Assembly (NCBI GenBank): GCA_030530875.1
Contig: JAUMUD010000011.1
Span: 1-60,991, forward strand
Length of the DNA stretch: 60,991 bases
Reading direction: 5' to 3'
Source: Corynebacterium sp.
Lineage (GTDB): Bacteria; Actinomycetota; Actinomycetes; Mycobacteriales; Mycobacteriaceae
In this document: one piece after another, positions 4,836-60,991 of the stretch
Position numbering within the stretch: position 1 is the stretch's first letter
Layout: each line of letters begins with the position of its first letter
Translations under genes and position numbers: made by a program
The notes under the pieces: generated by a model
Told to the model about the DNA's origin: nothing
The model's database searches: none
What the model saw: only the letters and a program-made list of their open reading frames with translations

Positions 4836-6563
4836 GTGAATAAGAGAGTGCAGTATATTGGCAGCATTCTTGCTGCTCTCTTCATGGTTTTTAGCGTAAC
4901 CCCGGCCCGCGCGGCTGATATTGCTGACCTGTTTAATGAAACCCAGGCCGATATTCTTCGTGCCTCGGGTTCCTCCGCAGCCCTACCGGAGTACCCAAAG
5001 CTCCACAGTGTTGATCAGGTTCTTAGCCCCGAACAGCGCTGTGGCACCAACCTTGCTCTGATCGTCCGCGGTTCCAATGAGAATCCTTCCGGTGATGAGC
5101 AGCCAAATCTGCTCACTTACCAGCAGATCGGTACTGACCTCTGGGGCGACTCTAACTACCAGATGGCTCGTAAGCGCCTTCATGGTGGCGGCTACCTTGG
5201 TCAGGGCTATGTGCGTGCAGTTAGCAGCGTGCCAGTAGCCACCTTGGTCTATCCTGCTTCCAAGATCACCATTGCTGGTGGTCCTGAAGTTGGTACGGAT
5301 ACCTACCGTAATTCGGTGGCCAAGGGTGCCGATCAGCTTACTGCTGCACTCCACACCATCTTCGATGCCTGTGGTGATAATCCGCCGCACCTCATTCTTG
5401 CTGGTTATTCCCAGGGTGCGGATGTCATTAATACCGTGACTTCCCGTCTGATGAATACCCCGGATGTGTACCTGCTTGAGCGCGTCCGCAAGATTCTGCT
5501 TCTTGGTGATCCATCCCGCCGTGCCAATGGTGCTGAGAACACCGATGCGTGGATTCGTGGTATTCCAACCAACTCCATTGGTGGTGTTTCCCGCGCTGTG
5601 ACCGCTGGTACGCCATATGTACTGAGCTATCCAACTCTTGACCAGTATCGCGATACTCACCAGGGGCAGATTGCTTCCTACTGTGTTGCCGGCGACCTGG
5701 TCTGCGATACTCATAGTGGTGAGTCCCTGCAGGGTGTGGAAGTCCACACCTCCTATGCCAATACGGTTTCCCACATCACTAACCCGGACATCCGTCAGCG
5801 CTACAATGTGCAGAATAATGCCCAGTATCTCGATGTACTCTGGTCCCAGGGCCTTGATGCCCTCGGAATCCAGAATCCAATTGCGGATAACTCTGTGGCC
5901 GTGGTTGGTCCTGGCCTTAATTACATGAGTATCTCGGAGAGTATTCGTGATACCACGAAGAGCCAGAAGGTTCGTGTCCGTGGTACCGCCTATAATGGCC
6001 AGGTCTTCGAGGGTGTGGGCACTATCGGTGCCGGTGCCTCCGGTGCGTTCTCTTACTTCCTCCCACTAGCATTCCCAATGGGTGTGGACTTGGAGGTTTA
6101 TCTGGACGATAATCTCATTGCCCGTATGCCAGCCATCTACTCCTATGCCAATAAGGCCAAGGACACTGAGGTCCGTGGCCGTTCCGTGATTGTCATTCAG
6201 GGTGACCACGACTACGACCGCCCGATGGGTGACCTGCTCATGAACCAGATTCAGAACTGGGGCATCCCACTGGAACAGCGCATTGAGGTCATCCGTTCCG
6301 TTTACGGCGATATTGGTGTTCACTGGTACTACGCTTGGCTGAACTTCGTCCACGCTGCTGGTGTACGTGTGGATTATGCCGATCAGCTCAACCAGCTCTT
6401 CGATCAGGGCCGTATCCCTGCCGCTGATGAGGACATGTCCAAGGACTTCAACACCATCACTAACGCGCTCCATGAGTGGGGCCTGATGGATGACCGTGGC
6501 AATATCAACATCGGTGGTATTGACCTGGTTCGATTCCTGGACATCTTCGTGCTCACCAATTAA
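4836..6563 (+). CDS. Secreted cutinase-family serine esterase with long C-terminal extension
   Basis: This 575-residue exported protein starts at GTG with a signal peptide ending near the Ala-rich ARAAD. The alpha/beta hydrolase core carries the cutinase elbow GYSQG with Ser192, a downstream GDLVCD with Asp287, and His304 in VEVHTSY, so a full catalytic triad and the paired cysteines are present. Mycobacterial and corynebacterial cutinase-like proteins act on lipids such as mycolate esters or on triacylglycerol; the substrate here is unknown. Ordinary cutinases have 200-340 residues, while here about 250 extra residues follow the catalytic domain, with no family I recognise. No membrane anchor is seen at the C terminus. 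Confidence 0.82.
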   Translation: MNKRVQYIGSILAALFMVFSVTPARAADIADLFNETQADILRASGSSAALPEYPKLHSVDQVLSPEQRCGTNLALIVRGSNENPSGDEQPNLLTYQQIGTDLWGDSNYQMARKRLHGGGYLGQGYVRAVSSVPVATLVYPASKITIAGGPEVGTDTYRNSVAKGADQLTAALHTIFDACGDNPPHLILAGYSQGADVINTVTSRLMNTPDVYLLERVRKILLLGDPSRRANGAENTDAWIRGIPTNSIGGVSRAVTAGTPYVLSYPTLDQYRDTHQGQIASYCVAGDLVCDTHSGESLQGVEVHTSYANTVSHITNPDIRQRYNVQNNAQYLDVLWSQGLDALGIQNPIADNSVAVVGPGLNYMSISESIRDTTKSQKVRVRGTAYNGQVFEGVGTIGAGASGAFSYFLPLAFPMGVDLEVYLDDNLIARMPAIYSYANKAKDTEVRGRSVIVIQGDHDYDRPMGDLLMNQIQNWGIPLEQRIEVIRSVYGDIGVHWYYAWLNFVHAAGVRVDYADQLNQLFDQGRIPAADEDMSKDFNTITNALHEWGLMDDRGNINIGGIDLVRFLDIFVLTN

Positions 6564-6587
6564 CTACTGAGCAAGGGCCCTGTGCAC

Positions 6588-7066
6588 CTAAACTGCTCCC
6601 CAAAAAGTTGACCGATATAAACGAAATCTGGTTGACTTGGAGGGGAGCAGTTTTTGTATCCAAGTAGTAAATTCTTCGCAGAAGTGCGTGATGCCAATTA
6701 CTAGGTCAAGAACGCTTTATGACCGCCGGCGTATTCATGGCAGAAGGTGTCTGATGGCAGAACGTACCAGGAAATATTATTCCCCCGAGCTGAAGATAAA
6801 GATTGTTAAGCTATACTTGCGCGGTAAGCCTGCGCGAGCACTTGCTAAAGAGTATGGGGTGAGCAGCGAAGGGCTGATTAAGACCTGGGTGCGAAAATAC
6901 ATTAATGAGGGCACGGAATCGCTTATGCCTAAGTCGAAAGGTGGCTGCTAAGGGGGCGAAGAGTTTGGCTGCTAAAACCGAACTTGAGCTGGCAGAAAAG
7001 CGTATTAAGATTCTGGAGTCCGAGGTGGCTTACCTAAGCAAATTGAAGGAATTGAGAGAGCAATAG
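6588..7066 (+). mobile_element. Degenerate IS3-type insertion sequence remnant
   Basis: The left end resembles an IS3-family terminus (CTGCTCCCCAAAAAGTTGAC) and is followed by an orfA-like reading frame, but no orfB integrase region is present before the next gene. A perfect 12-bp inverted repeat, AAACTGCTCCCC at 6590-6601 and GGGGAGCAGTTT at 6642-6653, closes on a T run and may double as a terminator for the cutinase gene. The element is therefore a fragment, not mobile on its own. Confidence 0.7.
6754..7066 (+). pseudogene. Frameshifted IS3-family OrfA transposase fragment
   Basis: The first 65 codons encode a helix-turn-helix protein typical of IS3/IS150 OrfA (SPELKIKIVKLYLRG, then KEYGVSSEGLIKTWV). 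The frame stops at 6949-6951. In the +1 frame the sequence continues as AAKTELELAEKRIKILESEV and then YLSKLKELREQ up to the TAG at 7064-7066, which is the leucine-zipper tail of OrfA. The shift is +1 rather than the -1 slippage used by intact IS3 elements, and no A-rich slippery site is there, so I read it as mutational decay. The DDE-type OrfB is absent. Confidence 0.75.
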
Positions 7067-23703: not shown

Positions 23704-23785
23704 GCCAGGTTGCCCGAGCGGCCAAAGGGAGCGGACTGTAAATCCGCCGGCTTGTCCTTCGGAGGTTCGAATCCTCCACCTGGCA
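23704..23785 (+). tRNA. tRNA-Tyr (anticodon GTA)
   Basis: A class II tRNA of 82 nt with acceptor stem GCCAGGT/ACCTGGC, D-arm GCCCGAGCGGCCAAAGGG, anticodon loop CTGTAAA, a long variable arm and a T-loop GTTCGAATCC. The 3' CCA is not encoded. A strong terminator follows within 10 bp. Confidence 0.95.
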
Positions 23786-23794
23786 CTGGGTCCG

Positions 23795-23870
23795 CCCCCG
23801 TTAGGAATCTTCTAACGGGGGTTAAACTTTGCCCGCGAGCCCCCATCTTCGGTGGGGTGCCGCGGGCATT
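23795..23870 (+). terminator. Two successive terminators after tRNA-Tyr
   Basis: The first stem pairs CCCCCGTTAG (23795-23804) with CTAACGGGGG (23812-23821). The second pairs GCCCGCG (23831-23837) with CGCGGGC (23861-23867), with inner CCCC/GGGG, and is followed by ATTTTCTTTTT. Confidence 0.85.
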
Positions 23871-24257
23871 TTCTTTTTCCCACCCTGATTCAGTCCCATG
23901 CCTCTCTAGCCTCGAATGCCGTCCCGCAGACTGTGTGGCAGGGGAGTGCGCCCAAGCGGGGGAGTATGCGAAACAAGGGAGTGTAGTGCCCAGCCATGCA
24001 CTGAGCTACTCGCTCAAAAGCCGTATCTACCTGCGTGTTTCCTCGTTGTAAATCAACTAGTGGTGCAGGTTGAATTTTCTAAATGTGCAGGTAAAGCTAT
24101 GTTTTCAGTGGCTAAAAGGTGGTAAACTCTTGACTGATACCCATTAGAAATGGGGTACTACCTGCAGATTTGTGTAGGGTCGAAGTCTATTGCTAATCTA
24201 ATCAAGGCTTCAGCGAACGGGCCAAGACAGAAAGTCAAGGTTCAGAAGCGAAGTTAA
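23871..24257. other. Gene-free interval before the tRNA-Thr/Met/Trp cluster
   Basis: I see no credible gene. The right part should carry the tRNA promoter: a TTGACT hexamer at about 24130 is followed by a small ACCCATT/AATGGGGT stem and AT-rich sequence. A short direct repeat, TGCAGGT, occurs twice about 25 bp apart near 24065-24095. Confidence 0.4.
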
Positions 24258-24330
24258 GCCCCCTTAGCTCAGTCGGCAGAGCGTTTCCATGGTAAGGAAA
24301 AGGTCGACAGTTCGATTCTGTCAGGGGGCT
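24258..24330 (+). tRNA. tRNA-Thr (anticodon GGT)
   Basis: A 73-nt cloverleaf with acceptor GCCCCCT/AGGGGGC, D-stem GCTC/GAGC, anticodon loop containing GGT within CATGGTAAG, and T-arm GACAGTTCGATTCTGTC. The discriminator is T and CCA is not encoded. Confidence 0.95.
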
Positions 24331-24382
24331 CTGTTTTTTATTGAGAGGGTATTTACTCGGCTCCCTCAATAAGGAACGGTTC

Positions 24383-24454
24383 GGCGGTGTAGCTCAGTGG
24401 TAGAGCAAACGACTCATAATCGTTGTGTCGCGAGTTCAATTCTCGCCATCGCTA
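24383..24454 (+). tRNA. tRNA-Met (anticodon CAT)
   Basis: A 72-nt cloverleaf with acceptor GGCGGTG/CATCGCT including two G-T pairs, D-stem GCTC/GAGC, anticodon stem AACGA/TCGTT with loop CTCATAA, and T-arm GCGAG/CTCGC. The first base pair is not the C-A mismatch of an initiator, so this is an elongator Met tRNA or a CAT tRNA modified for Ile; the elongator is more likely here. Confidence 0.9.
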
Positions 24455-24568
24455 CAGATGAAAGAGTGCCGTCCACAGTGATGGACGGCACATTTTTGTC
24501 TAATCACCCCTTTCGGCAGAATTTCTGCTAGAGTAGGTGAAGTTGGAAACACTAAGTGTTTTCGCCCT

Positions 24569-24641
24569 AGGGGCGTGGCTCAATTGGTAGAGCAGCGGTC
24601 TCCAAAACCGCAGGTTGCAGGTTCGAGTCCTGTCGCCCCTG
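24569..24641 (+). tRNA. tRNA-Trp (anticodon CCA)
   Basis: A 73-nt cloverleaf with acceptor AGGGGCG/CGCCCCT, D-stem GCTC/GAGC, anticodon stem GCGGT/ACCGC with loop CTCCAAA, and T-arm GCAGGTTCGAGTCCTGT. It lies 27 bp upstream of secE, the usual tRNA-Trp-secE-nusG order in actinobacteria. Confidence 0.96.
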
Positions 24642-50766: not shown

Positions 50767-51192
50767 GTGTTCTTGGCCGCCCCCTTAGCCGTCCTGGGCA
50801 CACTGCCTGCTATTGCCGCACCCCTCGACCCCCTCGCCCAGGGCAGCAGCGAACTCCCGGCCCTCGTGGTCCCCACCACTCTCGCCCCGGCTGTACGCGC
50901 CCTGGACCTTGCCCGCTGCCCGGCCGGTAGCATCAACCACGTGGTCCGGCCGGGCGTTATCCGCAACGCCCCGGTCCGTGGGGATAGTCTTCTTGACACT
51001 TCCTTCTGCCTGATGAGCATCGCGGAAGCCCGCCAAGTGCTTTTCGACGCCGTCAATGAGTACCGCATCGCCCAAGGTATCGTCCCACTCATTCGCACGG
51101 AAGAAGCCGATGAACAATCGCAGGCCTGGGCCTCGTCCCGCAAAGTAATGGCTGGTGGAAGGGCGTTCAGCAGTTCCGCTTCTAACTCCTAA
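50767..51192 (+). pseudogene. CAP-family gene with internal deletion
   Basis: The first 120 codons match the CAP paralogues downstream, including the Cys-Pro start of the mature motif, NAPVRGDSLLDTSFCLMS, and the CAP helix FDAVNEYRIAQGIVPLIRTEEA. After QSQAWASS the sequence departs. In another frame a few codons later the paralogues' C-terminal VQQFRF reappears with a stop at 51183-51185. About 80 codons of the CAP core (His and GEN motifs, HYxNLM) are lost. The start is also poor: GTG without a clear ribosome site. This is a dead copy. Confidence 0.78.
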
Positions 51193-51195
51193 CCG

Positions 51196-51271
51196 ATCAC
51201 GGAATTGATGTCAGAAACGTAGGATATAATCAACGTATTCTTCAAATCTGACGTGAATTCCGTGATTTTTT
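51196..51271 (+). promoter_or_regulatory. Promoter inside the loop of a large hairpin
   Basis: ATCACGGAATT (51196-51206) pairs with AATTCCGTGAT (51256-51266), with GTCAGA/TCTGAC inside, and a T6 run follows at 51266. A TATAAT hexamer (51225-51230) lies in the loop. The hairpin can stop read-through from the left while the inner promoter starts a fresh transcript for the CAP genes; the ribosome site AAGGAG lies just after. Confidence 0.5.
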
Positions 51272-51283
51272 CAAGGAGTCAAA

Positions 51284-52030
51284 GTGTTCAAAAGAAAAAC
51301 TGCGGCCATTTTAGGCGCCGCCACTCTTGCCTGCGCCGCCGCGACCAGTCCCGCCCATGCCGATGATGCCACCAATATCGGCCTTGGCCTTCTCGCCCTT
51401 GCCCTGAGTAGTTCCTCCAGCACCCCAAGCACGGGCGATAACAACACCACCACGACGACTACGGGCAACCAGGACTCTGGTAATAACCAGGGCACAACTA
51501 GTGATCCCTATGCGTATTTGAGTGCTGCTGATCGCGCCAAGTGCCCGCCGACCCCGTATTACTTCCAGAAAACTCCTGATGGTGACAAACTCACCGCTCC
51601 TGTTCGTGGCAAGGATGATAAGCATACTTCCCTTTGTCTCCTTAGCTCGGACCAAGCTCGTCAAGCAGTTTTCGATGCAGTCAATGACCTGCGCAAGGAA
51701 AAGAATGTTACACCACTGAAGCGCAGTGCTGAGGCTGATCAGAAATCGCAGTCCTGGGCTGAGCGTAAGGCACGCCTCAAGGACATTGTCCATTCCAAAT
51801 TTGATGGCAAAGAAAATGCCACGAATGGTGGCGAAAATATTGTCGTGTGCCTGAGCTTCTTCACTCCGTATCAGTGCGTGCAGTGGTGGCGCCATTCCCC
51901 AGGCCACTATTCCAACCTGATGGATCCTAGTTTCGGCTCGGCCGGTATGGGCCTTGGCATTGACTACAGTGCCGATGTCCAAAAAGAACCAAATAAATAT
52001 TATTTCGTGCAGCAGTTCCGCGTGAAGTAA
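51284..52030 (+). CDS. Secreted CAP-family protein (cluster 2, first)
   Basis: A 248-residue exported protein starting at GTG after AAGGAG, with signal peptide ending SPAHAD. A Thr/Ser/Asn-rich linker (about 45-75) and a Cys-Pro motif precede the CAP domain (about 125-248): VFDAVNDLRKEKNVTPLK, VHSKFDG with His, GGENIV with Glu, and HSPGHYSNLMD with the second His. It keeps all conserved CAP residues. The Cys-Pro...PVRG...SLCLLSSDQAR module before the domain is shared by all four members of the cluster. Confidence 0.84.
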   Translation: MFKRKTAAILGAATLACAAATSPAHADDATNIGLGLLALALSSSSSTPSTGDNNTTTTTTGNQDSGNNQGTTSDPYAYLSAADRAKCPPTPYYFQKTPDGDKLTAPVRGKDDKHTSLCLLSSDQARQAVFDAVNDLRKEKNVTPLKRSAEADQKSQSWAERKARLKDIVHSKFDGKENATNGGENIVVCLSFFTPYQCVQWWRHSPGHYSNLMDPSFGSAGMGLGIDYSADVQKEPNKYYFVQQFRVK

Positions 52031-52048
52031 GAATAGGGAGCAAAGACA

Positions 52049-52726
52049 ATGCGAATTTTTAAGTCACTAACCTGCACAATCGCCGCTGCACTCACAATTG
52101 CGACGGCAATTCCTGCCCCTGCCCATGCTGATGAAGGCTCCAGCAGCCTGATGATGGAACTCCTCGCATACGGGTCGAGTGTCCAGCAGGCCTTCACAGC
52201 TGTGCCTGATCCAAATGCCGGCCATGTTTCTGAAGCCGACCTTGCTGTCTGCCCGCCAATCAGCGGCATTAATTTCCTCGTTCGTCCTGGTGTCAGCCGC
52301 AACGCCCCTGTTCGTGGCGCTAGTCTTCTTGATACCTCCATGTGTCTCATGAGCATCGATCAAGCCCGCCAGGCCCTTTTCGATGCTGTCAATGAGTTCC
52401 GCACGGAGCAGAACGTGACCCCTCTCTTGCGCATCTCTGAGGCTGATCAGAAGGCTCAGGCCTGGGCTGAAAAGCTCGCGCGGGAAAATGTGTTTTACCA
52501 TGCTCCGGCCGATGGTGTTAATAACACGAGGAACAGCGGCGAAAATATCATCCAGTGCTTTATGTTTGCCACCCCACGCGACTGCGCCCTCGGCTGGAAG
52601 AATTCCCCTGGTCACTACGCAAATATCATGCGAACGGATTTTGACCGCTCCGGCATGGGTGTTGCCCGCGGCAGCGATGGCCACTTCAAGGCTGTCCAGC
52701 AGTTCCGCTTCAAAGGTCGCGATTAA
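52049..52726 (+). CDS. Secreted CAP-family protein (cluster 2, second)
   Basis: A 225-residue paralogue with signal peptide ending PAHAD and the same module VCPPISG...NAPVRGASLLDTSMCLMS. The CAP domain has YHAPADG, SGENIIQC, and NSPGHYANIM. It lies 18 bp after the previous gene, so it is in the same operon. Four cysteines outside and inside the domain could form two disulfides. Confidence 0.84.
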   Translation: MRIFKSLTCTIAAALTIATAIPAPAHADEGSSSLMMELLAYGSSVQQAFTAVPDPNAGHVSEADLAVCPPISGINFLVRPGVSRNAPVRGASLLDTSMCLMSIDQARQALFDAVNEFRTEQNVTPLLRISEADQKAQAWAEKLARENVFYHAPADGVNNTRNSGENIIQCFMFATPRDCALGWKNSPGHYANIMRTDFDRSGMGVARGSDGHFKAVQQFRFKGRD

Positions 52727-52759
52727 ATCCGGCTAAGGACGAGGAAAGGGAAGAGATAG

Positions 52760-53479
52760 TTGCGCAATCTTAAAAGTCTGATTCTCATTGCCACCGCCAC
52801 CCTCAGCATTGGCACCGCCGCCCCGGCAGTCGTCCATGCCGATGCTGCTGCCGATGCAACCAACCTGGCTAATGCACTACAGTGGGCCAACTTCTTTAGT
52901 AGTGTCGGCACGACCCTCAGTGCTGCTGGCGGCAGCAGCGGTAGTTCCGCTGGTAGCTCCGGCCTGTCGGGTAAGGACACTGGTAAGTGCCCAACTCAGC
53001 AAGGGATGAATTATTTGGCTGTCGATGGAGTCTATCGCAGCGAACCGGTGCGTGGTGATAGTCCGTTGGATACATCCATTTGCCTTCTTTCTAGTGATCA
53101 ACGCCGCCAGGCATTGTTCGATGCCGTCAACGAATACCGTATCGAGAAGGGGGTTACTCCTCTCGTTCGTACCGAGGAAGCCGACCTCAAGTCGCAGGCC
53201 TGGGCTGAGAAGATTGCAAAGGAAGACCGCCTCTACCATTCACAGTTCGACGGTATTCACAATGCCAAGGTCGGTGGCGAAAATGCAAAAACCTGTTTCC
53301 AAATTTCGACCCCACGTGAATGCGCGGTTGGTTGGAAGAACTCCCCCGGGCACTATGCCAATCTGATGAATCCGGATAATGACCGCTCTGGTATTGGTTT
53401 GGCTGCTACTGCCGATGGCATCAAATATTATGCTGTGCAGCAGTTCCGCCCGAAGGGCTGGAAAGAATCAGACGGTTAG
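52760..53479 (+). CDS. Secreted CAP-family protein (cluster 2, third)
   Basis: A 239-residue paralogue starting at TTG, with signal peptide ending VVHAD. A Gly/Ser-rich linker precedes KCPTQQG...SEPVRGDSPLDTSICLLS. The CAP domain has LYHSQFDG, VGGENAKT, and NSPGHYANLMN, and ends with the VQQFRPKG tail common to the set. It is the last of the group and is followed by an inverted-repeat element. Confidence 0.83.
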   Translation: MRNLKSLILIATATLSIGTAAPAVVHADAAADATNLANALQWANFFSSVGTTLSAAGGSSGSSAGSSGLSGKDTGKCPTQQGMNYLAVDGVYRSEPVRGDSPLDTSICLLSSDQRRQALFDAVNEYRIEKGVTPLVRTEEADLKSQAWAEKIAKEDRLYHSQFDGIHNAKVGGENAKTCFQISTPRECAVGWKNSPGHYANLMNPDNDRSGIGLAATADGIKYYAVQQFRPKGWKESDG

Positions 53480-54393: not shown

Positions 54394-55659
54394 TTACGCC
54401 TGCTTGGGCGGTGCAGGGGCAGTGGCAAACTCGACGGCCTTGGAATGCAAGTGGATGAGAACTGCTGCAAGGCCCTGGGCATAGTCAATTGCCTCATCGA
54501 ATTTGGATTCCGAATCCGGAAGCAGGGCAGTGGTAGCCTCCTCAAGTCCAAGAGGTGTGCCTTCTTCGGACTGAAGCACCCTTTCACTGAACTCAGTAAA
54601 CGAGCGAACCTGATCCTCAAAGAGTGCCTCAAGCAATGTGGCGGTTTTTTCATCCGCAGCCCAAACTGCTTCATCGCCGACAAAGGCGCGAATCAACGGT
54701 ACAATTTGTGGCCACTCAGGAATGATGTTGGGTACTGTGTCCGCGACCGACCTGAAAAGACTATCAAAGCGACTCAGGACCTCGCCTTGTGCGACTTTCA
54801 ACAGAGCAATCTGGTTTGCTGTTTTCCCGGAGTCAGCAGCATTTTTCACGGAGGCGACAAGAAATACACCCCGCTGGAATTCTGTGAGTGATGGCACAGT
54901 GCTCGGCGCTGCGAATTGCTTGGCGGCCAGCACTTTTCGCCATTCTTCACGACCATTGGTGATCCAGGTGCCACCGCCTTCCCGCTTCAGTTTTGCCTCT
55001 TCGCGGTTGAATTCGCTCCACAGTGCCTGTGCCAGTTCTACCGCGTGGTCATCGCCTGCTCTCTTAGCGACAGCTTCCTGGGCGCGGGCCAGCCTCTTAT
55101 CCAGGCTCACCTCAATAAGTGGGTTAGTGTTTGGCAAGCTCAGACGACGCCAGCGCTCAATCAGCTCAATTTCATCCTCGAAGCGTGAAAAGCGTGACAG
55201 CAAGACCGCCACCTGCGCGACGTAGTGAGGCATCGCGCACGCCGGATTCTTGCTGGCTGCCTCCTTCATCGCATCGGCTGCTTGAATCGCCAGCGCCAGA
55301 GCATCCGCAAATTTCCTTGCCCGCTTGAGACGGTTGACCTTGCTGTCGAGTTCGCAGATCGGAAGACCATTGACCATCGGCATTTCCCAACTTTCAGGCA
55401 CACCTTCGACCTGGTCTGGCTGTGGTGGCGCCACAAGCCCGTTGAAGTCGACAGTGACCTTGACCTTCGGCGGTGGCGGTGGGGCAACACTCTCAGTGGT
55501 TTCCGCCATCGGCGGTGCAGGACGCACGGGATTATAGTCGCGGAGAGCCCTGGCGACGGCCGCGAAGTCATTATTGCGCTCAGTACGCGGTTTCGTCGGC
55601 TGCGAACCTGAATATTTGGGCCACTGCATGTTACGGTATGGATTCTGCGGATCAGCCAT
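54394..55659 (-). CDS. Uncharacterised 421-residue helical protein
   Basis: A 421-residue soluble protein. The first about 90 residues are Pro-rich and probably unstructured (run of PPPPP at about 60). The rest is strongly alpha-helical with a TPR-like region around 105-200 (LKRARKFADALALAIQAADAM and LSRFSRFEDEIELIERW). No known domain is recognised. It lies next to the CRISPR locus but transcribes away from cas9, and nothing in the sequence ties it to immunity. Confidence 0.66.
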   Translation of the reverse strand: MADPQNPYRNMQWPKYSGSQPTKPRTERNNDFAAVARALRDYNPVRPAPPMAETTESVAPPPPPKVKVTVDFNGLVAPPQPDQVEGVPESWEMPMVNGLPICELDSKVNRLKRARKFADALALAIQAADAMKEAASKNPACAMPHYVAQVAVLLSRFSRFEDEIELIERWRRLSLPNTNPLIEVSLDKRLARAQEAVAKRAGDDHAVELAQALWSEFNREEAKLKREGGGTWITNGREEWRKVLAAKQFAAPSTVPSLTEFQRGVFLVASVKNAADSGKTANQIALLKVAQGEVLSRFDSLFRSVADTVPNIIPEWPQIVPLIRAFVGDEAVWAADEKTATLLEALFEDQVRSFTEFSERVLQSEEGTPLGLEEATTALLPDSESKFDEAIDYAQGLAAVLIHLHSKAVEFATAPAPPKQA

Positions 55660-55785: not shown

Positions 55786-55878
55786 AAAAAAAACCCGGGC
55801 CGTAGCCCGGGGGAGCGTTCAGCACAGCTAACGAGGCTGTCCTTACTGAGTTTTGGTAGTCACTAGGCTAATACAGTT
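55786..55878 (-). ncRNA. Candidate tracrRNA of the type II-C CRISPR system
   Basis: On the minus strand, 55856-55846 reads CCAAAACTCAG, exactly complementary to CTGAGTTTTGG of the CRISPR repeat. After this anti-repeat come a nexus-like stem ACAGC/GCTGT and the hairpin CCCGGGC-TACG-GCCCGGG (55794-55811), followed by eight T. A -10-like TG-C-TAAAAA lies at 55884-55892, placing the start near 55878 and the length near 93 nt. A second block, plus-strand CTAATAC at 55868, resembles GATATAC in the repeat and could pair with its 3' half. Ends are approximate. Confidence 0.78.
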
Positions 55879-56018
55879 TAGAATTTTTAGCAAATTGCCT
55901 GGAGGAACGAAAAGAATTTGATGTTCTGGGCGAGGTTCAAAATTGTTGTCACAACCCCTGGGTAAACTTGTAGGCAATAGCAGTTGTTCGCTCTATTATC
56001 CAGCTAAGGATGGTTTCT

Positions 56019-59000
56019 ATGAATATGCTTTATCGTATCGGTATCGACGTTGGTATTTCTGGTGTGGGCATGGCTGCCATTGAGGTCGATGAATCAGGTA
56101 AGCCACTAAAGATTCTTTCGGCAGTTACGCATCTCCACGACAGTGGCGTTGATCCTGATAATAACAAATCTGCGAAGACCCGACTAGCCGTTTCTGGTGT
56201 TGCGCGACGTACTCGACGACTGTATGCGCAGCGCAAGAAGCGTCTCGAGAAGTTGGACAGGTTCATCACTGAGCAAGGGTGGCCAATCATCGACCTCCAG
56301 AAGGAGTCTGATCCCTATTTGCCGTGGAAGATTCGAGCGGAACTTGCGACTGTCAAAATTGAAGACGATGCGGTTCGTAATGCCAAGCTGTCCATCGCCC
56401 TTCGCCATATAGCTCGGCATCGCGGTTGGCGCAATCCGTATCAAAAAGCTAGCTCACTGGTAGTAAAGCAAGCTCCAAGTGATGCCTTCGAAAAGTTCCG
56501 CGCTGAAGTCTCAGAAAAGCTCGGTGTCGAGGTGTCTCCTGATACTACAGTTCCCCAGCTTCTGAGTAATTTTGAACTGCAAGGGGAGAAGTTGCGTGGC
56601 GACGGCGGCTTATTCGCCGATGGCTTCCGTCAGTCTGATTTTGCTCGAGAGATTCAGATGATCGGTGAAGTACAGCAACTCGATCGCAGCCTTATCAAGG
56701 ATATTATTCTCGTAGTATTTGCTGCGAAATCTCCTAAGGGATCTGCGGCCTCACTTGCAGGCAAAGACCCGCTTCGGCCGGAGCTCAATCTTGCCCGTGC
56801 CCTTAAGGCATCTGATGCCTTCCAGCGCTATCGCATAGTCTCGCTTTTGGCCAATCTCCGAATTGTTGAGGACGGCGGTCAGCGTCCCCTGACTGTTGAA
56901 GAGCGCCACAAGGTCGTGAACTTCATTTTGGGTTACCCTCCCCAGAAGAATCCGACGTGGACTGAGATTGCTGACCAGCTTGGCATTGACTTGGGGCTAC
57001 TACGCGGTCGCACATCGACAACTGATGACGGTGAGCGCTCGGGTAGTCGACCTCCACTCCATGACACGAATCGGGCAGTCCTTGGATTTACCAAAGTCAA
57101 GCAGCTTCAGATTTGGTGGCAAGACGCTGATGACCAGGCTCGTGCGGCGCTGATTAATGCGCTCTCAAATTCGGGCGTTGATGATTTTGAGAGTGAAGGT
57201 GGTAAGAAGGCTTGGGACTTTATGAGCTCTCTGTCGGATGCTGAGCAGGAAGCTTTGGAAGGACTCCGACTTCCAGTCGGCCGTGCCGCCTATTCCGAGG
57301 ATACGCTAGTTAAATTGACTGATGCCATGCTGAATAAGGGGCTCGATCTGCATCAGGCGCGTATTGAGTGCTTCGATGCTCCTGCGGACTGGACGCCACC
57401 AGCAGCACCGATCACTGAACGGACTGGTAATCCGTCAGTCGACCGTGTTTTGAAGATTGTGAACCGCTGGCTTCTTGCTGCACAGCGTGAATTTGGCACC
57501 CCGGCCTCGATTAATATTGAGCACGTTCGAGCTGGCTTTCAGTCAAAGAAGAAGGCGAATGACTACACTGAACTTATCAAGGATAGAAATCGGGCTAATG
57601 ACAAAACCCGTGAAGAGATGAAGAATGAACTGGGCCTATCACATGAGGAGCAAGTTCGTTCTTCTGAGATCCGTCGATGGCTTGCGATTCAGCGTCAAAA
57701 TGGCCAATGTGCATACTGTGGTGGTCCGGTAACTTTCAAAAATTCTGAAATGGATCATATTGTGCCACGGGCTGGAGCAGGTTCTACCAATACCCGCGAT
57801 AATCTTGTTGCCGTATGTGGTCGCTGTAACCGTGAAAAGGGTAAAATTCCGTTCGCGGTTTGGGCTGCAAATACCAGCATTAAGGGTGTTAGCGTACAGG
57901 AAGCAGTGGATCGCATTAAGTCGTGGAACCGTGATCCACAACTAACGGCTGCCGAGTTTGGCCAGCTGAAACGAGCTGTTGAAGCAAGGATGAAACGTAA
58001 GACGATCGACGAAGAAATTGATGCTCGCTCACTTGAGTCGGTCGCATGGATGGCCAACGAATTGCGTGCACGAATCTACGGTTGGGTCAAGGAACAGGAA
58101 CCAAGTCCAACCGGTAGCACCAAGGTCCGGGCTTTCCGTGGTTCTATCACCAGCAGCGCTCGTCGTGCGGCGAAGTTTAACGCAATTAAGATGATTGGCG
58201 GCACGGGCAAGACTCGTCTCGATCGCCGTCATCATGCTGTGGATGCATGCGTCATCGCGCTGGTGACTGCAATTCCAGCGCAGGTGCTTGCTGAGCGTGA
58301 TTCTCTTCGTGAGGAAGCATATAACCGCCGAAATAATGATCGCTCATGGGAAGAATGGACTGGCGGGCCGCAGAATTCTCATGTTTTCAAGACATGGCTG
58401 AAAAACATGGATGACCTCCGTCTCCTGGTTCAGCAAGCACTTGATAATGATGAAATTGCCTTGACTAAGAATCTCCGTCTCCGTCTTGGAAATGGTGCGG
58501 CGCATGATGCGACTGTGCGTCCGCTTGTGAAGGCGCCCCTCTCGGCTGCATTCTCTAGAGATGATATACATAAGGCTTCGAATGGTGCGCTTTTTACTGC
58601 ACTCACGCATCTCGAAGACTTTGATCCAAAAAAGGGATTGCCGGAGAACCCGAATCGAGAGATAGTAGTAAACGGCACGCATTACAAGGGCGATGACGAG
58701 ATCACATTTTCACCTCTTAAAAGTAAAAATCCAAAGCGTGATGAAAATGGCCGTATTCCTCTATCCAACTGTACGCCTAACCCTATCACTGAGGTTCGTG
58801 GCGGTGCGGCTGCCGTAACCCGTTGGCATCACCTACGCATTTACAAAATTGGCAATTCGTTCGGAATGGTGCGAGTTTACGTACAGGATTTGGTAAAGCA
58901 AAAGGGTGATGTGTTCAGTGTTGAGTTGCCGGCCCACTCGATGTCTATTCGCTATGCTTTGCCATCTACTCGAACCGCAATTCTGAATGGCAAGGCTGAA

Positions 59001-59342
59001 TATCTCGGATGGCTTGTACAAGGTGATGAGGTAGTTTTGAAGCCTGAATTCGTAGCTGAGCGGGTCTCTTTCCTTGAAGAATTGGCGCCGGGAACTGTCC
59101 GCTGGCAGCTGACAGGTGCAGACCGAAATAGGTTGATGACGCTGAAACCACTCATGCTTGCGAAAGAAGGTCTAAAAAGCGGTGCGTCTGAAGAGTTGAC
59201 GAAGTTGCTTGGTGATGACGGTTTGGACCTGGCGCCGAGTACCTTGTTTGGAAAAGCATTTGTTGCCTGTATCAGGCGCAACGCACTGGGACAAGAGCGC
59301 TGGCACTCGAATGCTCATTTGCCGGTGAGCTGGAAGGTCTAA
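56019..59342 (+). CDS. cas9: Type II-C CRISPR RNA-guided endonuclease Cas9
   Basis: A compact Cas9 of 1107 residues, near the size of Actinomyces naeslundii Cas9. All nuclease residues are seen: RuvC-I GIDVG with Asp10, RuvC-II NIEHVRA with Glu501, RuvC-III RRHHAVDA with His738, His739 and Asp742, and HNH with MDHIVPR (His580). CAYC and CGRC flank the HNH core, a zinc-binding pattern. An Arg-rich bridge helix follows RuvC-I (ARRTRRLYAQRKKRLEKLDR). I start it at ATG 56019, 8 nt after AAGGA; an ATG at 56010 is too close to that site. cas1 begins one base after its stop. No csn2 or cas4 follows, so the subtype is II-C. Confidence 0.95.
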   Translation: MNMLYRIGIDVGISGVGMAAIEVDESGKPLKILSAVTHLHDSGVDPDNNKSAKTRLAVSGVARRTRRLYAQRKKRLEKLDRFITEQGWPIIDLQKESDPYLPWKIRAELATVKIEDDAVRNAKLSIALRHIARHRGWRNPYQKASSLVVKQAPSDAFEKFRAEVSEKLGVEVSPDTTVPQLLSNFELQGEKLRGDGGLFADGFRQSDFAREIQMIGEVQQLDRSLIKDIILVVFAAKSPKGSAASLAGKDPLRPELNLARALKASDAFQRYRIVSLLANLRIVEDGGQRPLTVEERHKVVNFILGYPPQKNPTWTEIADQLGIDLGLLRGRTSTTDDGERSGSRPPLHDTNRAVLGFTKVKQLQIWWQDADDQARAALINALSNSGVDDFESEGGKKAWDFMSSLSDAEQEALEGLRLPVGRAAYSEDTLVKLTDAMLNKGLDLHQARIECFDAPADWTPPAAPITERTGNPSVDRVLKIVNRWLLAAQREFGTPASINIEHVRAGFQSKKKANDYTELIKDRNRANDKTREEMKNELGLSHEEQVRSSEIRRWLAIQRQNGQCAYCGGPVTFKNSEMDHIVPRAGAGSTNTRDNLVAVCGRCNREKGKIPFAVWAANTSIKGVSVQEAVDRIKSWNRDPQLTAAEFGQLKRAVEARMKRKTIDEEIDARSLESVAWMANELRARIYGWVKEQEPSPTGSTKVRAFRGSITSSARRAAKFNAIKMIGGTGKTRLDRRHHAVDACVIALVTAIPAQVLAERDSLREEAYNRRNNDRSWEEWTGGPQNSHVFKTWLKNMDDLRLLVQQALDNDEIALTKNLRLRLGNGAAHDATVRPLVKAPLSAAFSRDDIHKASNGALFTALTHLEDFDPKKGLPENPNREIVVNGTHYKGDDEITFSPLKSKNPKRDENGRIPLSNCTPNPITEVRGGAAAVTRWHHLRIYKIGNSFGMVRVYVQDLVKQKGDVFSVELPAHSMSIRYALPSTRTAILNGKAEYLGWLVQGDEVVLKPEFVAERVSFLEELAPGTVRWQLTGADRNRLMTLKPLMLAKEGLKSGASEELTKLLGDDGLDLAPSTLFGKAFVACIRRNALGQERWHSNAHLPVSWKV

Positions 59343-59343
59343 A

Positions 59344-60240
59344 ATGAGCAACAGCTGGCGGGTACTCGATTTTTCGAACTTTGATGGTGTAATCCGCTAT
59401 CAAAGGGGTGCTCTGCTGGTTGATAGACGAAATGACGAACAGCCACCTCTGAGGGTTCCACTCGCAGAGGTGGCTGTTGTGCTACTCGGAATTCGTTCCT
59501 TAGTCTCAGGTGCGGTCCTTGCCAAGCTTGCCGAATATGACATTGCTGTAATGACTGTGGATTGGCGAGGACTGCCGACGAGTGCGCATGTCCCATGGCG
59601 AGAACATAGCCGGATTGCTGCCCGCCAGCGGGCCCAGGCTAGTCTAAAGCTTCCTCGACAAAAACGTGCATGGCAAGAACTTATCATTGCCAAAATAAAA
59701 GGGCAGTCGCATACTTTGAAGGTTCTAGATGTGAGTGGCCATGAGGAACTCTACGAAATTGCTAGATCTGTTAAATCAGGGGATTCGACAAACTGTGAAG
59801 CCATCGCTGCACGAAGATATTGGCATGCTTTAGGAATCAGAAGAGATTATCCTAGCGATGAAAATACTTTACCGATAAATGCAAAATTGAATTATGCATA
59901 TGTCGTGCTCAGAGGCTATGGCATCCGTGCTGTGGCAGCTGCCGGTTTGGCGCCTGCGCTAGGCATTTTCCATCGTCAGCGCGATAATCAGTTTGCTCTC
60001 GTCGACGATCTTATCGAGCCATTTCGTCCGGCAGTCGATACACATGTTTTCCGATTTTTACCCCTTGACGATGACTTGGATGCTGATCAAAAGAAGAAAA
60101 TTGTGGGAATTTTCGATACTCCATTTGATAAAAGTGGCGCGACCATCCCGAATTTACTAGTGGACTTAGCTCAAGCCTATGGCATCTTCGCGGAGGGTGG
60201 CGACCCCAACTTATTTGTTCCACCAGTCTGGAGGCTGTGA
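59344..60240 (+). CDS. cas1: CRISPR integrase Cas1 (type II)
   Basis: Cas1 with Cas2 integrates new spacers. The 298-residue protein has the type II Cas1 features: N-terminal beta domain with PLAEVAVVLLG, the EAIAARRYWHALG helix with the metal Glu, NAKLNYAYVVLRG, and GIFHRQRDNQFALVDDLIEPFRP with the catalytic His and Asp. It lies one base downstream of cas9 and one base before cas2 in a tight operon. Confidence 0.95.
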   Translation: MSNSWRVLDFSNFDGVIRYQRGALLVDRRNDEQPPLRVPLAEVAVVLLGIRSLVSGAVLAKLAEYDIAVMTVDWRGLPTSAHVPWREHSRIAARQRAQASLKLPRQKRAWQELIIAKIKGQSHTLKVLDVSGHEELYEIARSVKSGDSTNCEAIAARRYWHALGIRRDYPSDENTLPINAKLNYAYVVLRGYGIRAVAAAGLAPALGIFHRQRDNQFALVDDLIEPFRPAVDTHVFRFLPLDDDLDADQKKKIVGIFDTPFDKSGATIPNLLVDLAQAYGIFAEGGDPNLFVPPVWRL

Positions 60241-60241
60241 T

Positions 60242-60568
60242 ATGAAAGATAAGGATGCGAACGTGTGGCTCTTAACATTATTTGATTTGCCTGTTGGTAC
60301 GCTGCCTGAGCGGCGCGCAGCAACAAAATTCCGTCAGCACTTGCTTGATATTGGGTTTTCAATGCTGCAGTTCAGTTGCTATATTGTGTATGTGCCAAAA
60401 CGGCACAGAGTGCCGGCAATTATCCGTGAGGTTAAAGAGGCTTTACCAGGTGGCGGTGATGTACGGATTGTTGTTTTCACTGATCACCAATGGCAGACTT
60501 CATTCTGGCACCACAACAGCACAACTAAACAAGTTCCTGCTCCGCCAGACCAGCTAACAATTTTTTAA
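60242..60568 (+). CDS. cas2: CRISPR-associated protein Cas2
   Basis: A 108-residue ferredoxin-fold Cas2 starting at ATG 60242 (MKDKDANVWLLTLFDLP), where the conserved first strand and Asp are seen. The middle helix ERRAATKFRQHLLDIGFSML and VRIVVFTDHQW complete the fold. It follows cas1 by one base. Confidence 0.93.
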   Translation: MKDKDANVWLLTLFDLPVGTLPERRAATKFRQHLLDIGFSMLQFSCYIVYVPKRHRVPAIIREVKEALPGGGDVRIVVFTDHQWQTSFWHHNSTTKQVPAPPDQLTIF

Positions 60569-60826
60569 GTAGTCCACATGGTGCTTTCTATTTAGCCGGA
60601 ATCGACTCGAGATTTAGTCCGAAACTAATTAGCCGCCGGGTCGGGTACGCATTGGATGTCAGTCTTGCGCTTTGGTTTCCGGTCATCTTGTTGGGTTCAC
60701 TAGGAAGGTAAGCCTAATATTGGATCGCTTGTTATCTCGATGAGGATGCCGCTCAAATGGCTGTTTGAGCAGTGGATATTTCACAGTGGGGCGATGCTTC
60801 TTATCATTCCGAACACTGGCTAGGGG
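60569..60826 (+). other. Interval between cas2 and the CRISPR array
   Basis: No gene is seen in about 260 bp. A stem GCTCAAA/TTTGAGC lies at about 60751-60769. At 60762-60798 a very weak repeat-like stretch keeps ATATTTC and GTG one period (within 1 nt) before the next fossil repeat, which suggests further array decay. Confidence 0.45.
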
Positions 60827-60991
60827 CGACTATGGTTGGGTAATTTTTTTGTGGTATACTTTCGACCTGCCTCAGTGAATGTCCAGCAGAGTTGAGTTTT
60901 GGTTATATTTCCTCGTGATGTTCTTCCCAGCATTGCGAGCCTTGCACTAGAGCAGCTGAGTTTTGGACGCATTTCCTCGTGATATACTCCC
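60827..60991 (+). CRISPR. Start of CRISPR array with degenerate cas2-proximal repeats
   Basis: Three repeat-like units lie at a 64-nt period: 60827 (poor), 60891 (28 of 36 identical to the next) and 60955 (best). Each has 36 nt and the two gaps are 28 nt. The best unit starts GCTGAGTTTTGG and contains ATTTCCTCGTGATATACT. It carries an extended -10 (TG-A-TATACT) at repeat positions 26-34, and the oldest unit has TG-G-TATACT at 60852. The array continues beyond the window, so repeat consensus, spacer number and orientation of growth are inferred from two and a half units. Confidence 0.8.

Follow-up and report, generated by a model that had tools for sequence, protein, structure and literature searches.

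Among the nearest known counterparts of the locus reported here are the II-C loci of Corynebacterium. For the guide RNA of C. diphtheriae Cas9 (CdCas9; PDB 6JOO), the available portion of PMC6488586 describes a 12-bp repeat:anti-repeat duplex in the sgRNA and base-specific contacts of the protein with G77, C78, U79 and C80/C81 of the linker. According to excerpts of PMC3936727, transcription of type II-B and II-C arrays runs against that of the cas operon, and tracrRNA position and direction differ within groups. Excerpts of PMC12638026 state that cas and array directions are not always aligned and that orienting an array is most difficult in II-C. In II-C systems each repeat has its own promoter and new spacers enter downstream; the oldest (first) repeat gathers mutations that weaken tracrRNA pairing and must still act as a promoter (PMC12080349, in the passages available).

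We analyzed a stretch of 60,991 nucleotides (the window) that makes up all of contig C39 of a draft Corynebacterium genome of 2.19 Mb (2,187,412 bases in 67 contigs, 93.9% complete). The contig ends at 60991, inside a CRISPR array. The minus strand at 55786-55862, upstream of three adjacent cas genes, holds what is, judged from its sequence, a type II-C tracrRNA of the CdCas9 kind. The cas genes and the parts of the candidate RNA are as follows.

56010-59342, plus: cas9, type II-C, 1110 aa, with presumed RuvC and HNH catalytic residues present
59344-60240, plus: cas1, Pfam and NCBIfam match (TIGR03639, E 3.8e-64)
60242-60568, plus: cas2, Pfam and NCBIfam match
55786-55862, minus: candidate tracrRNA, extent of the match to covariance model R1; the transcript start may shift a few bases either way
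55846-55856, minus: anti-repeat CCAAAACUCAG, exact complement of the repeat's CUGAGUUUUGG, plus a G:U below it
55824-55840, minus: nexus or stem loop 1 (ACAGC...GCUGU), from folding, alignment and covariation
55812-55816, minus: GCUCC linker, corresponding to the bases that CdCas9 contacts there in the crystal structure
55786-55811, minus: stem loop 2 and intrinsic terminator, seven GC pairs (55811-55794) and eight U (55793-55786)
55870-55865, 55873-55868 and 55880-55875, minus: candidate -10 words TAGCCT, TATTAG and TAAACT, respectively, chosen by eye against congener upstream sequences

No stop codon interrupts cas9, and the reading frames of cas1 and cas2 are open as well. Six residues of the window Cas9 that we take to be catalytic (D13, E504, H583, N607, H742 and D745) occupy invariant columns in an alignment of nine Cas9s. 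The best solved match of this protein is 6joo, and 4OGC also matches. In an alignment counted by hand, the CdCas9 linker contacts Asp939, Arg1070 and His1076 correspond to D967, R1097 and H1103, whereas Asp977 corresponds to Gly1005, so that one of the four linker-contact residues differs. Csn2, the mark of II-A, had no match in the genome in a search that also found Csn2 in none of 14 control genomes. For cas4, the mark of II-B, there was one borderline match to a Cas4/RecB-like nuclease (24 bits, E 4.1e-5; C65:51858-52202, minus), far from the cas9 locus.

Elsewhere in the window, four consecutive tRNA genes lie at 23704-24641 (plus), and four tandem, mutually similar open reading frames, which presumably encode secreted CAP-domain proteins, lie at 50767-53479 (plus). 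A 421-aa reading frame at 54394-55659 (minus), which neither Pfam nor NCBIfam matched at E 0.001, adjoins the candidate RNA.

Homology, covariation and pairing of the candidate tracrRNA

The 11-mer CTGAGTTTTGG occurs exactly twice in the window, both times on the plus strand: at 55846-55856 and, inside the repeat that starts at 60955, at 60956-60966. Dinucleotide shuffles of the window gave an expectation of 0.01, and none of 100 shuffles reached two. On the minus strand, UAAGG, the ACAGC/GCUGU stem, GAACGCUCC, a GC hairpin and eight U come after the anti-repeat, in this order. A preliminary description of the interval had claimed an exact 11-nt anti-repeat shared with the repeat, as well as a nexus-type stem and a GC-rich hairpin with eight T on the minus strand, and all of these were found. 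It had named a better anti-repeat at another locus as a ground for doubt. No further copy of the 11-mer exists in the 2,187,412 bases of the genome, and the longest rival anti-repeats elsewhere in the window were two 10-mers without tracrRNA features after them.

Folded as a single sequence, the tracrRNA has an ordinary energy (z -1.38; equalled or bettered by 21 of 200 shuffles), and the weight of its identification therefore rests on homology. The terminator scan expected 0.5 such hairpins in a region of the same size, and Rfam gave no match near the tracrRNA.

A search of the window's own genome and 100 relatives yielded seven congeners with a near full-length Cas9, 46-50% identical to that of the window, each with an anti-repeat of 11 to 13 exact bases upstream of cas9. 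Some Cas9 match was present in 47 of the 101 genomes; beyond the seven congeners and the own genome these were short HNH-domain matches and were rejected. A 42-residue cas9 fragment in genome G044 (L041) was left out. From the aligned tracrRNAs of the seven congeners, with the window excluded, we built the covariance model R1. It matched the window at 55862-55786 on the minus strand with 54.1 bits and an E value of 1.4e-10, the outcome of a covariation-model search that the preliminary description had put forward as a check; the next-best match in the window had E 0.95. This was also the single match at E <= 0.001 in the own genome, where 150 of 365 first-look candidates were scored. A genus-wide search found this Cas9 at E 1e-50 in 33 of 242 genomes (own included), and all 32 others were compared. 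R1 matched every one of these 32 Cas9 loci, 25 of which are outside the model, L081 only weakly (E 5.8e-4), and it did not match the two outgroup loci L092 and L093.

Covariation in the nexus helix was assessed in 24 sequences picked by hand from the R1 matches. The helix was paired in 96.4% of cells, and its covariation score was 0.909 compared to 0.324 in shuffles, with none of 500 reaching it; relatedness among the sequences inflates such shuffle tests, and the slide control agrees, the covariation collapsing when the helix is slid. All seven pairs changed on both sides, a count also reached by 43 of 500 shuffles.

Pairing was compared by setting each anti-repeat against the first 22 nt of 31 repeats (L070 and L091 left out). 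The own repeat was unbeaten by a different repeat in 21 of the 31 loci. The window anti-repeat forms 11 exact pairs and a G:U with the 5' part of its own crRNA repeat, and this repeat was the best of the 31 at -14.7 kcal/mol, with the repeat common to L039 and L040 close behind at -14.4 (0.3 apart). Duplex folding with the repeat had likewise been proposed as a check. The window duplex was the weakest of the 31 tested; its energy was -19.2 with the full repeat and -15.7 with the degenerate copy. The window repeat starts GCTGAGTTTTGG, whereas most congener repeats start GCTGGGG. Homology, covariation, pairing, locus order and strands are supported by the sequence, and the divergent minus-strand II-C tracrRNA of the preliminary description is borne out by a model built without the window, by nexus covariation, by pairing with the own repeat and by open cas9, cas1 and cas2 genes.

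The promoter is the weakest point of the mechanism proposed below. A sigma-70 consensus scan upstream of the tracrRNA found no promoter at the expected distance; its only minus-strand site there, TTCATA-17-GATAAT at 56023-55995, falls within the beginning of cas9 and precedes the anti-repeat by about 130 bases. A -10-like element at the right distance had been claimed, and candidate words can be picked by eye at 55865-55880, but none of the three (TAGCCT, TATTAG and TAAACT) passed the scan.

The array and its oldest repeat

The array lies beside cas2, and its repeat units stand in a 64-nt register.

60827-60862, plus: remnant of the oldest ("extra") repeat, which retains the extended -10 TGGTATACT but not the half that pairs with the tracrRNA
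60863-60890, plus: spacer 1, 28 nt, from the register of the repeats
60891-60926, plus: degenerate repeat, 28 of 36 identical to the last copy, TTGAGTTTTGG kept
60927-60954, plus: spacer 2, 28 nt, between the repeats at 60891 and 60955
60955-60990, plus: CRISPR repeat, crRNA sense plus, with -10-like TATACT at 60983-60988; the contig ends one base later

The remnant lies exactly 128 (2 x 64) bases before the clear repeat and carries a second TATACT at 60855-60860. As a whole it is identical at 17 of 36 positions, a value reached by 0.35% of window places; its promoter part scores 10 of 14, a level attained at 0.035% of places in the window, and its pairing part 5 of 18. The degenerate repeat at 60891 has decayed in both parts (promoter 11 of 14, pairing 13 of 18) and fits an old-end pattern less neatly. 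We also examined the distal unit of 29 congener arrays (L067 and L070 left out), counting it as recognized when at least 20 of 36 positions were identical. It was recognized in 18 of the 29; among these the promoter part (14 nt) was perfect in 14 and the pairing part (18 nt), which is somewhat more exposed to change, in 2. The kept promoter and lost pairing half of the remnant follow the pattern described in the available passages of PMC12080349 and agree with a plus-strand array whose old end is beside cas2. Judging by these motifs, the window array appears to have repeats with their own -10 and a decayed oldest repeat that keeps its promoter.

The break of the contig at a repeat suggests that more exact copies would lie beyond it. 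In the other contigs no further array was found, the two known copies being the only ones with up to 3 mismatches allowed. The preliminary description had spoken of tracrRNA, cas9-cas1-cas2 and array as a complete II-C system; the order holds, but "complete" says more than the sequence shows, as the contig ends after two repeats and one remnant.

Neither spacer, searched as a 30-mer against 50,697 phage records, had a protospacer match covering 80% of the query at E <= 10, and exact 20-mers from the 3' ends of both had 0 matches in viral contigs. Autoregulation of cas9 by a spacer was considered and rejected: with the 3' end anchored, spacer 1 matches at most 8 nt and spacer 2 at most 7 nt elsewhere in the window, and none of the best-ranking places listed coincides with the cas9 promoter. 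A hairpin scan of 60540-60991 gave only a weak 5-bp hairpin. By eye, among L035-L040, a hairpin with a T-run is present between cas2 and the first repeat in several congeners, and an inverted partial copy of the repeat's promoter half is present beside cas2 in some.

Orientation of tracrRNA and array among relatives

The window Cas9 is 46-52% identical to the 32 congener Cas9s. With the C. diphtheriae guide RNA (6JOO; PMC6488586, in the portion available) and the Corynebacterium II-C tracrRNAs (L034-L040 and L067-L091), the window RNA shares a duplex of about 12 bp, stem loop 1, a GCUCC-type linker, a terminal hairpin and a place upstream of cas9; it differs from the Corynebacterium tracrRNAs in its strand, which is opposite to that of cas9, and in having the weakest duplex tested. 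In 31 of the 32 congener loci the tracrRNA is upstream of cas9 and on its strand, about 700 bases away in L087; in the exception, L081 (genome G123), it lies beyond the downstream array on the other strand. Judged by the ends of their repeats, all 31 congener arrays have a crRNA sense that opposes cas9 (L091 has no CRISPR array). In the window, by contrast, the tracrRNA is divergent from cas9 and the array has the sense of the cas9 strand. Because both are flipped, tracrRNA and array still pair. A single inversion behind both flips was rejected by reasoning, as each module must flip in place from the common order. In L081 (G123), arrays occur on both sides of the cas operon (1-1300 and 6140-6600).

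The window array, whose sense is that of cas9, departs from the rule that arrays are transcribed opposite to the cas operon. Two other actinobacterial II-C arrays break this rule, and we therefore do not treat it as defining.

These two came from a wider census. Class-wide, two other genomes reached E 1e-50 among 394 searched (own included). Plasmids gave no match at E 1e-50, and the window Cas9's own peptides, used as queries in named genomes, found no relatives. A Cas9-alignment scan gave 109 relatives, of which the best 80, named actinobacterial loci, were kept. At E 0.5 or better R1 matched 60 of these 80 loci, and in 55 the match was upstream of cas9 on its strand; the 20 loci with no match at E 0.5 stand outside this strand count. 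The tracrRNA was upstream on the opposite strand in L149, L137, L130 and L160, and beyond the array in L126. The bifidobacterial and Gardnerella matches, except L137, were weak (E 1.6e-4 to 0.054), and their strands are therefore less sure. Arrays were called in 65 of the 80 loci (none in 15): 60 ran opposite to cas9, two with it (L156 and L173), and three were ambiguous, opposite by eye. Array sense was the usual one in L149, L137 and L160; in L130, with its divergent tracrRNA, the array lies outside the available sequence. After removal of the 17 loci common to the genus-wide set and these 80, the comparison covers 75 other loci with a model match and 80 other arrays. Both flips together occur in none of those with both modules in view, and single flips exist.

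Among the single flips, Propionimicrobium lymphophilum DSM 4903 (L149) resembles the window in its divergent tracrRNA just upstream of cas9 (minus 5801-5880, E 8.9e-14) and differs in its array, whose sense is opposite to cas9 as usual. The Propionibacteriaceae MAG Hs463_bin120 (L156) and Curtanaerobium respiraculi (L173) have an array in the sense of the cas9 strand, like the window, but a tracrRNA on the cas9 strand, placed there by a model match in L156 and, with no model match, by a hand-read anti-repeat in L173. In the II-C system of Bifidobacterium bombi (PMC4521832, in the passages available), the tracrRNA is upstream of the cas9 5' end, as in the window, but on the positive strand. Among the abstract openings and paper excerpts covered, no II-C locus appeared in which the two modules are both inverted.

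A quick Cas9 tree of 86 rows (five short Cas9 fragments left out), in which 18 of 82 inner branches are poorly supported, requires at least four changes of tracrRNA strand (L081 and L126 left out) and at least three of array sense. The window Cas9 falls within the Corynebacterium group, at the end of a long branch (1.51 and 1.01 in two trees), so its layout is probably derived.

Proposed mechanism, alternatives and meaning

We consider it very probable that the interval is the minus-strand tracrRNA of a type II-C CRISPR-Cas9 system that works as outlined here, with both RNA modules inverted relative to nearly all relatives examined. From the features above we infer transcription, maturation (with or without RNase III), Cas9 binding and DNA cleavage. 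The tracrRNA would be transcribed from the minus strand, away from cas9, and stop at its own terminator. The array would be transcribed from the plus strand, starting at the -10 elements within its repeats; the remnant beside cas2 would be the oldest repeat, whose promoter half starts spacer 1 and whose pairing half is gone, so that no useless guide is made. The 5' end of the tracrRNA would pair over 11-12 bp with the first 12 nt of the crRNA repeat part, and stem loop 1, the GCUCC linker and the terminal hairpin would dock on Cas9 as in the CdCas9-sgRNA structure. Duplex formation would lead to Cas9 loading and target cleavage.

A chance 11-nt match beside an unrelated terminator, such as that of a small RNA associated with the 54394-55659 gene on the minus strand, is vanishingly improbable. 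That gene is on the same strand and the terminator scan expects 0.5 such hairpins, but chance is contradicted by a full-length R1 match (E 1.4e-10) in which anti-repeat, nexus, linker and terminator come in the expected order. It is the sole match reported in the genome, and 31 of 32 congener loci likewise have their tracrRNA upstream of cas9. A reading of the RNA as the cas9 leader was dropped, since it lies on the other strand. The gene might also be the relic of a decaying system, in keeping with a duplex that is the weakest of 31 tested, two degenerate units among three repeats (the one at 60891 decayed in its promoter part too, 11 of 14), the lack of a scan promoter at the right distance and a long Cas9 branch (1.51 and 1.01). 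We regard this as very unlikely, given a cas9 without internal stop, open cas1 and cas2, presumed catalytic residues in invariant columns and a retained nexus, linker and terminator. Moreover, a mutated oldest repeat is usual in II-C systems (PMC12080349, in the passages available), and the contig break at a repeat suggests further exact copies.

The flipped layout itself could have arisen in assembly, through a pair of small inversions or a chimeric contig end, as the genome is a draft of 67 contigs and the array sits at the end of one. This, too, we hold to be highly improbable: it would take two flips at separate places 5 kb apart, the array is in register with its old-end pattern on the cas2 side, and single flips of each kind are present in other genomes.

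Read as the tracrRNA of this II-C system, the RNA fills a gap in the parts list of a Cas9 with an unusual repeat, and a guide RNA could therefore be built and tested. The double inversion, together with a tree minimum of four strand and three sense changes, suggests that tracrRNA and array act as independent modules around the cas operon. It is possible, though short of probable, that an unchanged cas operon now lies between two inverted RNA modules: tracrRNA transcription would start in the region of the cas9 promoter and run away from cas9, transcripts of the cas operon could extend into the array, and the oldest repeat would be a bare promoter. If both modules are indeed inverted, spacer acquisition would take place far from cas2 rather than beside it as in relatives. 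The locus also cautions that the direction of a II-C array is not to be deduced from that of its cas operon.
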